Assembly (NCBI RefSeq): GCF_001421415.1
Contig: NZ_LMKH01000036.1
Coordinates: 196,611 to 260,610 of the forward strand
Origin: Sphingomonas sp. Leaf208
Lineage (GTDB): Bacteria; Pseudomonadota; Alphaproteobacteria; Sphingomonadales; Sphingomonadaceae
Direction of reading: 5' to 3'
Length of the DNA stretch: 64,000 nucleotides
Shown: piece by piece, positions 29,559-31,310 of the stretch
Numbering within the stretch: position 1 is the first letter of the stretch
Layout: each line of letters opens with the position of its first letter
Notes under the pieces: model-generated
Told to the model about the DNA's origin: nothing
Databases searched by the model: none
What the model saw: only the letters and a program-made list of their open reading frames with translations
Translations under genes and position numbers: made by a program

Positions 29559-30140
29559 ATGCGCACTCCGTCCCCTCACCTCGTCGGCTTGCGATCGCTT
29601 GCCCACCCTCTCGTCCTAGCGCGGCTTGCCGGTCTGGCGACGCTCGCGTCGATCGCGGGCTGCGTGCCGCCACCGCGGGCCGAAGCGCCGCCCCCGCCGC
29701 GTACCGTGGCCCCGCCCGCTGCTCCGGCACCGCGCCCGGTACCGATTGCTGCGGATTGGCGCGACTGGCCGTATTCGCCGGGGACGTGGGTGTATCGCCG
29801 CGATGCGCGCGGTTCGATCGCGTTGTTCGGGCCTGCCAATGCCGATGCGTCGCTGACGGTGCGCTGCGACACGGCTGCACGCCAGGTCTATCTGTCGCGC
29901 GCGGGGAGCACGCCGACGCCGCTGACGATCCGCACGTCGAGCGTGACGCGGGCCGTCTCCGTACAGCCGACCGGAGGCACGCCGCCTTATGTCGCGGCCT
30001 CACTGATGCCGAACGATTCGTTGCTGGAGGCGATGGGGTTCAGTCGCGGGCGGTTCGTCGTCCAGCAGGCCGGACTGCCGCCGCTCGTCGTGCCCGCCTG
30101 GGCCGAGATCGAACGCGTCACCGAGGATTGCCGCGGCTGA
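29559..30140 (+). CDS. Putative lipoprotein, function unknown
   Basis: A 193-residue exported protein. The signal peptide ends in a lipobox (ASIAGC, about residue 34), then a proline/alanine-rich linker (PPPRTVAPPAAPAPRPVP) leads into a small beta-rich domain containing GTWVYRRDARGSIALFGP, LTVRCDTAARQVYLSRAG and the C-terminal ERVTEDCRG. Two Cys in the mature domain could form a disulfide. The start is the ATG at 29559; the longer frame upstream only overlaps the PRC-barrel gene antisense. No recognised domain. Confidence 0.7.
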   Translation: MRTPSPHLVGLRSLAHPLVLARLAGLATLASIAGCVPPPRAEAPPPPRTVAPPAAPAPRPVPIAADWRDWPYSPGTWVYRRDARGSIALFGPANADASLTVRCDTAARQVYLSRAGSTPTPLTIRTSSVTRAVSVQPTGGTPPYVAASLMPNDSLLEAMGFSRGRFVVQQAGLPPLVVPAWAEIERVTEDCRG

Positions 30141-30263
30141 TTTCGTTGAACCGGCAGTCGCACAGGATTGACCGAAAACTTCCGTAAAACAAGGCTTGTA
30201 TCGCAGGCGCGGTCGGCACACATTGGCGTTGCGGTCAGGCTTGGCCGCGTTGTTTCAACAAGC

Positions 30264-30278
30264 GAAAGGAGGTGATCC
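30264..30278 (+). promoter_or_regulatory. Unusually long Shine-Dalgarno sequence
   Basis: GAAAGGAGGTGATCC is complementary over 15 nt to the usual bacterial 16S rRNA 3' end (GGATCACCTCCTTTC). The GGAGG core lies 7 nt before the ATG at 30280. Ordinary genes here have 4-6 matching bases, so this is an extreme ribosome-binding site. Confidence 0.8.
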
Positions 30279-30279
30279 G

Positions 30280-30336
30280 ATGTCTCATGGTTCAGCAGTG
30301 AGTTCGGTTCGGTTCGTTCGGGGGACGCACCGCTAA
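30280..30336 (+). CDS. 18-residue micro-ORF
   Basis: Encodes MSHGSAVSSVRFVRGTHR and stops at TAA (30334-30336). The peptide is basic, with three Arg and two His. Reasons to believe it is translated are the exceptional Shine-Dalgarno at ideal spacing and the terminator-bounded transcript around it. Length gives no statistical support. It could be a true microprotein, a leader peptide or a ribosome-loading site within a regulatory RNA. Confidence 0.5.
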   Translation: MSHGSAVSSVRFVRGTHR

Positions 30337-30446
30337 GTCCGCCGGTCCGCGTGGGGAGTATCCTCTCCCAGTCAACACGTGGTCCATAGGATAGGCGGTA
30401 CGCATGGTCCTCCGGGCTGGAGCTCTCCGGCCGCTGACCATGTCAG

Positions 30447-30488
30447 GAGGCTGTCGGTTCGTCGTGAGACGATCCGGCAGCCTCTTTT
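30447..30488 (+). terminator. Intrinsic terminator
   Basis: Stem GAGGCTG with CAGCCTC, continued inward by CGG/CCG and TCGTC/GACGA around a GTGA loop, followed directly by TTTTCGTTT. This is the clearest classical Rho-independent terminator in the window. Confidence 0.85.
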
Positions 30489-30702
30489 CGTTTGTGAGAA
30501 CTACGGGGCGTGGTGGCATGCTGTGCTTGGGGCAAACTCATTGCCCGGCCCGCGCCGCCTAATGTGAGGCCAGTTCCAGACTCCACAGCACTACGTACTT
30601 GATCGGTTAAGTTTTGCGGCATTGTATGGCCGAAACTATCCAGAGATTCCGGGACGTTTGGCACGCCGCCGTCCGTGACAGATCGAAGGGGCAGTTCACG
30701 TC

Positions 30703-30824: not shown

Positions 30825-31310
30825 CTACAGGAACGACTTCGCCCGGTTAAGGACTATGCTGCACATCCGCGTCTTCACCTGCCCGCCGAGATCGTCGAGT
30901 GAAAACGCCTGGCCGTTCGGCGCCTGCACTTCGCCTTCCTGTCCCGCGGCATAGCCCGGCGACGTCTGCACGCCCTGACGTCCGGTCAGACGCTGGAGGA
31001 TCGACTGCGCGCCGGTGGCCGGGGCCTTTGCGCTGGCCGCTCGTGACGCAGCATTCCGCCCGCCAGTTAAGGCGCCAAGTGCACCGCCTTGCCCGAGCAG
31101 ATTGTTCTTCAGGCAATAGCCGAGCAATCCGGCAGCATTGCCCGCGCCGATCGATCCGACGTTCGGCAACGCGCCACCGAGCAGACCGCCGAGTCCCCCG
31201 AGGCTGCCCAAGCCACCCTGCGTCGACGCCGATTGTGGCGCGGTGGTCTGGGCCGAGGCCGTGGTTGCGAGGGCGAAGGCTGCGACGAGGGCGATTGCGG
31301 TCTTGGGCAT
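30825..31310 (-). CDS. DUF2501 domain-containing exported protein
   Basis: A 161-residue protein with a signal peptide (MPKTAIALVAAFALATTASA). A glycine/leucine-rich segment (GLGSLGGLGGLLGGALPNVG) leads into AAGLLGYCLKNNLLG, the core of DUF2501, a family that includes E. coli YjjA. The C-terminus FSLDDLGGQVKTRMCSIVLNRAKSFL contains a second Cys, so a disulfide with the YCLKN Cys is possible. The start is ATG 31310. Its role is unknown. Confidence 0.85.
   Translation of the reverse strand: MPKTAIALVAAFALATTASAQTTAPQSASTQGGLGSLGGLGGLLGGALPNVGSIGAGNAAGLLGYCLKNNLLGQGGALGALTGGRNAASRAASAKAPATGAQSILQRLTGRQGVQTSPGYAAGQEGEVQAPNGQAFSLDDLGGQVKTRMCSIVLNRAKSFL

Follow-up and report, generated by a model that had tools for sequence, protein, structure and literature searches.

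Positions 30264–30488 of the window, by which we mean the whole analysed stretch of 64,000 nucleotides, place a long complement of the 16S rRNA 3' end directly before an ORF of 18 codons, and raise the question of what such a locus is for. The initial annotation had considered three options, namely a highly translated microprotein gene, a leader whose real output is the structured 3' part, and an RNA that titrates or senses 30S subunits. We approached the question from the parts of the locus, their distribution and their variation among relatives.

Ribosome-binding site and locus layout

All parts of the element lie on the + strand. The ribosome-binding site (RBS) GAAAGGAGGTGATCC (30264–30278), the Shine-Dalgarno (SD) core GGAGG within it (30268–30272) and the ATG (30280–30282) that opens the 18-codon ORF MSHGSAVSSVRFVRGTHR (30280–30336, with a TAA stop at 30334–30336) were read directly, and the short ORF initially noted behind the RBS was thereby confirmed. 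A pattern search did not locate the 16S 3' end in this draft genome (the pattern was found in three of ten genomes searched). In four relatives (L399–L402) this end reads ...GGCTGGATCACCTCCTTTCTAAGG, also written ...GGATCACCTCCTTTCTAAGG, and on these grounds GAAAGGAGGTGATCC forms 15 contiguous Watson-Crick pairs with the 16S tail. The 4.7-Mb genome has one exact copy of GAAAGGAGGTGATCC, no site at one mismatch and five at two mismatches; each of ten relatives has one copy of the exact 15-mer, and a second occurrence in four of them is the 16S end. Because the exact copy is unique in this genome and in the relatives, the match is not due to chance, and the complementarity proposed initially holds. 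Its proposed distance of 7 nt from the ATG is correct for the SD core, which ends 7 nt upstream, but not for the 15-nt match, which ends 1 nt upstream. An antisense or fragment of the 16S gene was ruled out, as the match spans just 15 nt and is followed by a start codon and helix P1 (see below). The 30S binding site together with the start is the stretch most conserved at sequence level, although for the RBS this is partly circular, the loci having been found via the RBS. In sub-lineages L056, L057, L062, L067, L085 and L096, GGTGACCGATG replaces GGTGATCCGATG; the stretch ahead of the start is one base shorter there, and the match to the 16S end is reduced.

Upstream, a promoter-like TTGTAT-N17-CACATT (30196–30224) is predicted, and a cTTG-N17-CATnTT-like pair was seen by eye, uncounted, at roughly the same place in many relatives; a simple scan found no sigma-70 consensus promoter. 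A short hairpin TGCGGTCAGGCTTGGCCGCG at 30230–30249, upstream of the RBS, was reported by the terminator scan, and by eye an Erythrobacter-like group has a GGTGAAACGGCGG-like stretch in its place. The element ends in an intrinsic terminator (30447–30488) with an 11-bp lower stem (30447–30457/30474–30484) followed by TTTT; the stem (30447–30484) and TTTT are visible by eye and in the predicted fold, and were not picked up by a simple terminator scan. The predicted fold of 30240–30492 has an energy of −125.5 kcal/mol (z = −5.7), a value as low as which was reached by none of 200 shuffles.

The gene upstream on the same strand (29559–30140, start chosen by us) is lipoprotein-like and gave no Pfam family, and the next downstream ORF with a family match (DUF2501, 30825–31310) lies on the other strand, in agreement with the initial remark that no larger gene is attached. 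A regulated gene downstream on the same transcript, as a leader or attenuator would have, was not found at the window locus. Crude ORF calls placed the next ORF of relatives on the same strand in 75 cases and on the other strand in 51. A homologue of the lipoprotein-like gene lies within ~4.5 kb at 77 of 140 related loci, and uvrB lies upstream in 34 of 177 loci (132 of which hold at least 3.5 kb of upstream sequence); a fixed operon with uvrB was ruled out, and the two counts together support common descent of the locus and argue against a fixed operon partner. A single upstream gene at 96 of 140 loci was dropped as a candidate, since the clustering had chained different genes together.

Distribution and relation to RF01867

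By BLAST with 30190–30500, 181 of the 199 family genomes contain the element, or 173 of 187 when only those of good quality are counted, which excludes a strain-specific feature and bears out the conservation outside the strain on which the initial proposal depended. The exact core is present in at least 119 stretches of the named genome collection, and the 80 exact-core loci listed carry names that we take to be those of Sphingomonadales, save four with broader MAG labels. Within the order, a covariance model built from 49 window-type sequences matched 61 of 147 genomes, every one of them a member of the window's own family. Across the class it matched 58 of 385 genomes at E ≤ 0.01, five of which belong to that family; several of the weaker class-level matches extend hardly beyond the 5' block. 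The class-level loci that were read have the same layout and different P1 sequences.

At curated Rfam cut-offs, tRNA was the only match in the window and none fell on the element. Against the RF01867 (CC2171) model the window copy scored 28.6 bits, where 75 are required at gathering. The same genome holds a second copy on contig 9 (99047–99200) that scored 62.8 bits and a third on contig 20 (12546–12697), with its start region altered to ATGATTCAT, that scored 53.0 bits. Window-type intermediates lie at 58.4 (L077), 54.1 (L064), 47.9 (L025), 40.6 (L011), 39.8 (L009) and 34.6 bits (L010), and the window-type model in turn recovers the CATTGTC-type loci L103–L105 at 35–38 bits. Since the intermediate scores bridge the gap, we conclude from these sequence comparisons that the window element is a divergent relative of RF01867, homologous through intermediates and by Rfam's own criterion not a member. 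The initial statement that no named family matches is in part wrong, RF01867 being a named relative, albeit one whose cut-off the window copy does not reach (28.6 versus 75 bits).

The third copy (L384; G000 contig 20, 12200–13050) lies on a 15.9-kb contig, carries GAAAGAGGTGATCGAATGATTCAT, in which the RBS is weakened and the second codon changed, and has kept P1; it may be decaying or plasmid-borne. A mobile element was rejected as an explanation of the group: no phage record matched, and the one plasmid match lay on an Azospirillum replicon, where an ORF of 58 aa is annotated as 'hypothetical protein'. In L103 and L104, which belong to one genus, the CC2171-like RNA is followed directly by the SRP RNA (RF00169).

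The window element and CC2171 have in common the RBS GAAAGGAGGUGAUCC with AUG or GUG followed by UCU CAU, a helix between codons 3–5 and the bases before the terminator, and the terminator hairpin. Accordingly, the window copy contains the 5' block of RF01867 (16S-complementary RBS, start codon, UCU CAU), the terminator hairpin adjoining the closing helix, and both strands of the closing helix itself. The 3' strand is retained by all 204 window-type sequences, but the helix does not appear in the fold predicted for the window copy. The two differ in the sequence of the helix (CATGGTTCAGC/GCTGACCATG in the window, CATTGTC/GACAATG in CC2171) and in an extra variable arm at the stop codon of the window element. 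Rfam classes RF01867 as sRNA, and the available part of its entry mentions no ORF.

The CC2171 family is much wider than its cut-off shows, since at E ≤ 0.01 the RF01867 model matched 183 of 199 genomes of the family, only four of them above the cut-off. Matches near E = 0.01–0.1 include false ones (5 of 14 control genomes matched at 0.1, two at 0.01 and one, Caulobacter, at 0.001). At E ≤ 0.001, 85 of 385 class genomes were matched (80 of 380 outside the window's family), 13 above the cut-off, and 300 of the 385 sampled gave no match; among the class-level loci found with the window-type model, L108, L127, L128 and L133 pass the cut-off. The group is thus spread over the class but patchy, or elsewhere too divergent for the RF01867 model. 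A relative has been seen as a transcript: the available part of a study of Mesorhizobium huakuii labels the RNA-seq transcript MH_s33 as RF01867 (CC2171), with a second coordinate pair, of 215 nt, that we read as the RNA-seq product (PMC5596092). In the part of the Rfam 15 paper at hand, RF01867 is tabulated among the families with improved structures, with one more covarying pair (PMC11701678). Literature searches, including those under CC2171 and RF01867, found no functional study of a CC2171-type RNA.

Reading frame, peptide and paired regions

Variation was followed in 204 distinct window-type sequences, pooled from several searches and restricted to those with no more than two differences in the 5' core. 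Because of this filter, codons 1–5 and the start of codon 6 are conserved partly by selection of the set; the 3' block, codon 9 and the stop are outside its selection criteria. The first in-frame stop follows codon 18 in 186 of the 204 sequences and codons 15–21 in the remainder, and all three stop codons occur as codon 19 (TAA 114, TGA 56, TAG 17). The two alternative frames gave 46 and 37 outcomes (no stop being counted as one outcome), with at most 28 and 18 sequences per outcome, respectively. By this comparison the reading frame is under selection.

The peptide does not share this conservation. In codons 7–18, pN/pS is 2.0 (2157 close pairs; 1.04 and 0.43 in the shifted frames), which does not indicate the purifying selection on amino acids expected of a functional microprotein, and the synonymous-only change in the ORF that the initial annotation had suggested looking for did not appear. 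Codon 9 is TCG in 186 of 186 sequences, its silent site as fixed as the rest, and in L091 a 4-nt insert shifts the frame relative to the conserved AGGTCGG block, which is nonetheless retained. Among more distant relatives the peptides at such RBSs are unrelated between lineages. The residues of codons 3–6 change along with the P1 sequence. As these codons supply one strand of that helix, the start of the ORF is best accounted for at the RNA level. With frame and stop conserved and the peptide not, a sequence-specific microprotein is disfavoured in this lineage.

Two further patterns were seen near such ORFs. A GAGCARCCTY-like block near the ORF end is kept in distant relatives in two frames, as EQP (L344, L347, L348, L352, L356, L361, L366, L367, L373, L378, L382) or as SNL/SSL (L357, L362, L379, L381), and is for that reason probably an RNA element, perhaps a small hairpin. 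In some lineages (L129, L130, L346, L372 and L391, the last on the Azospirillum thermophilum plasmid NZ_CP029356.1, 468826–469002), the same kind of RBS precedes an ORF of 55–58 aa with a signal-peptide-like start and then a Cys...His stretch (e.g. ADCSTTHSA, AECSTSHQA), possibly, to judge from its sequence, a genuine small protein that is secreted and makes use of this type of leader.

The long-range helix P1, with one bulged base, joins codons 3–6 (CATGGTTCAGC, 30286–30296) to the bases just before the terminator (GCTGACCATG, 30433–30442, 4 nt upstream of the terminator stem), and its 5' strand is within reach of an initiating ribosome. It is part of the consensus fold and absent from the predicted fold of the window copy. 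Of the 204 sequences, whose selection took account of the 5' end alone, 202 carry the exact 3' strand and all carry it with at most one change; when the downstream sequence was shuffled, the 3' block with up to two changes occurred in 27 of 204. Other P1 types occur across the class, among them CATTGTC/GACAATG, CATTGCC/GGCAATG, CATCG/CGATG, CATGAAT/ATTCATG, ATGAGATT/AATCTCAT, GTGAG/CTCAC and GTGAT/ATCAC.

P1 was tested across the class in 98 sequences, which remained of 113 rows after five with an ORF >45 aa and ten without a rule-defined terminator had been dropped; 24 of the 98 are copies from the window's own family and 74 lie outside it. An unanchored test found P1 in 66 of 98, compared with 43 of 98 for control ORF nucleotides +21 to +32 and 272 of 1960 swaps. 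Because this test was weak, the ORF control being nearly as good, an anchored test was made, with the 5' end at +7 to +9, the 3' end beside the terminator, at least four Watson-Crick pairs and the 3' ends permuted 1000 times. Anchored P1 was found in 68 of 98 sequences (permuted mean 29.8, maximum 44), in 31 of 58 without the CATTG type (mean 10.5, maximum 19) and in 46 of 74 outside the window's family (mean 16.1, maximum 26); an anchored P1 of four Watson-Crick pairs was absent from 30 of the 98.

Inside the window's family P1 hardly varies and consequently gives no covariation signal. Double changes there affect 7 of 11 pairs of P2 and 11 of 13 pairs of the terminator, the stem of which covaries across relatives. 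Over the 40 pairs of the structure, 135 double-change cells were counted, compared with 43.2 after shuffling (none of 500 shuffles as high); a weaker measure, which asks only how many pairs show at least one double change, gave 18, a value reached by 9 of 500 shuffles. The covarying stem pairs sought by the initial annotation were thus recovered in P2 and the terminator and, for P1, by the class-wide test.

P2, which rests on covariation and the window fold, pairs CGGGGGAC (30319–30326) with GTCCTCCG (30407–30414) and surrounds a hairpin at the stop codon. This ORF-end arm (30327–30403; GCACCGC with GCGGTACGC), drawn from the fold and the relatives' sequences, contains the stop codon and a lineage-specific insert. 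Block 2 (30302–30307), placed by the consensus fold and the covariation analysis, is GTTCGG in the window and GGTCGG in most relatives; it can pair with 30427–30432 as an extension of P1, with one mismatch in the window copy. The consensus fold includes P1 with this extension (GGTCGG/CCGGCC). Alternatively the CCGGCC strand can form the local hairpin P3 (GGCTGG/CCGGCC, 30415–30432), which is seen in the window fold and excludes the extension. At its lowest energy the window copy is predicted to form P3 together with a hairpin that covers the RBS, and not P1, to which a probability of 0.01 is assigned. Over the 204 sequences, forcing P1 has a median cost of 1.5 kcal/mol (≤3 in 129) and its probability has a median of 0.17 (≥0.5 in 75), and two folds of similar energy are computed for many relatives. 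These predicted energies, which ignore ribosomes, magnesium and folding during transcription, allow a bistable RNA, are not proof of one and favour the P1-open form for the window copy.

Possible roles and known systems

We propose that the locus encodes a stand-alone small RNA of ~220–260 nt, a member of a divergent Sphingomonadaceae branch of CC2171, which would act as a ribosome-gated riboregulator; this is a tentative reading, to which we give a probability of roughly 0.4. Sequence comparison establishes the RBS, frame, stop, P1, P2 and terminator, and from there we infer transcription at this locus, translation, the switch and all downstream effects. The clearest outside partner implied by conservation would be the 30S subunit. 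The leader would offer it a near-perfect landing site, and a 30S or 70S on the start codon, covering ~15 nt downstream, would have to open P1, with which 30S loading would compete. Translation of the short ORF would melt P2 and stop inside the arm of P2. With few ribosomes loading, P1 and its extension would close the RNA; with ribosomes loading, the 3' strand would be released and P3 would form instead. The peptide would be a by-product and the read-out the RNA fold, and hence stability, processing or partner binding.

A ribosome-gated RNA is suggested because conservation falls on a 30S contact in the sequence, on a ribosome-opened helix in the structure, and on start, frame and stop in the code. 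We counted in its favour the kept frame and stop with a free peptide, the class-wide anchoring of P1, the covariation of P2 and the terminator, the location of the most conserved sequence at the 30S site and start, the frame-shifted block of L091, the P1 cost of at most 3 kcal/mol in 129 of 204 sequences and the transcript MH_s33. Counted against it were the P1-free lowest-energy fold of the window copy, the 30 of 98 class-level sequences lacking P1, the patchy distribution, the 10 of 113 rows without a rule-defined terminator, and the 55–58-aa ORFs, which point to a protein product in their lineages. Of the options considered initially, the leader with a structured-RNA output and the 30S-titrating or -sensing RNA fit best combined.

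More generally, CC2171-like RNAs might be old alphaproteobacterial riboregulators with the ribosome as ligand, in which the fold would report the ease of 30S initiation and the clearance of a dummy frame, and the ORF would be selected for being read and not for its content. This extension we consider doubtful. By the comparisons made here, a family catalogued as sRNA carries a reading frame whose stop is conserved and whose peptide varies freely. Were the ribosome its ligand, such an RNA would let the cell gauge its initiation capacity directly, in bacteria most of whose genes are without a strong SD; in Caulobacter, 24.6% of CDSs are given as having an SD in the available part of one study (PMC4117421). 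A single short RNA with a single helix and a single start codon would also be a clean experimental handle.

Of the other explanations, a trans-acting base-pairing sRNA, the structured part of which would pair with mRNAs and the ORF of which would be incidental or part of a dual function, is unlikely. It would suit the locus's own promoter-like and terminator elements, the Rfam typing of CC2171 and the dual-function sRNAs of Sinorhizobium described in the accessible part of PMC10117765, but beyond the RBS and block 2 we saw no unpaired stretch kept across lineages, and the loops of P1, P2 and P3 change freely. That the 15-bp duplex instead holds 30S subunits, lowering global initiation or storing subunits, is quite unlikely. 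A complementarity that exceeds an ordinary SD and is unique in the genome speaks for such titration, as does a CAACAA-like leader seen by eye in many relatives; it would, however, need no conserved start, frame, stop or P1, and an RNA from a single-copy locus could presumably titrate ribosomes only at extreme abundance.

That the locus yields a small mRNA under very strong translation, with the 18-aa peptide as its product, is distinctly unlikely. Two predicted ncRNAs of Caulobacter were found translated, although which ones is not stated in the available part of the source (PMC4117421). Arginine is common at codons 8, 14, 17 and 18 of the window-type ORFs, and the 55–58-aa ORFs of some lineages show that such an RBS can precede a longer, signal-peptide-like frame. 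The microprotein suggested initially thus keeps its frame and stop (186 of 204) but loses its conserved peptide: to the pN/pS of 2.0 and the unrelated peptides of other lineages are added the equally fixed silent site of codon 9 (codons 1–6 being part of the selection) and the RNA block kept by frame-shifted L091. Very unlikely, finally, is an inert mRNA with 5'–3' closure in the style of type I toxins, in which P1 would silence the full-length form and 3' trimming would activate translation: P1 joins the start region to pre-terminator bases as in the long-distance pairing of such mRNAs, but by eye the 18-aa peptides of the lineage are not hydrophobic or toxin-like.

The type I toxin mRNAs hok and aapA1 have long-distance 5'–3' pairing in which the start region is paired with the 3' end. 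The window element has this pairing in common with them, and differs in having no toxin-like peptide and an extreme SD. The ribosome-gated riboregulator that we prefer also invites comparison with attenuators, in which translation decides the fold. According to the available part of PMC10117765, the dual-function Sinorhizobium attenuator RNA rnTrpL, with its peptide peTrpL, is leaderless, and it differs further from the window element, which has no attenuated downstream gene and an unconserved peptide; like the window element, it is a small RNA that contains a short ORF and a terminator.
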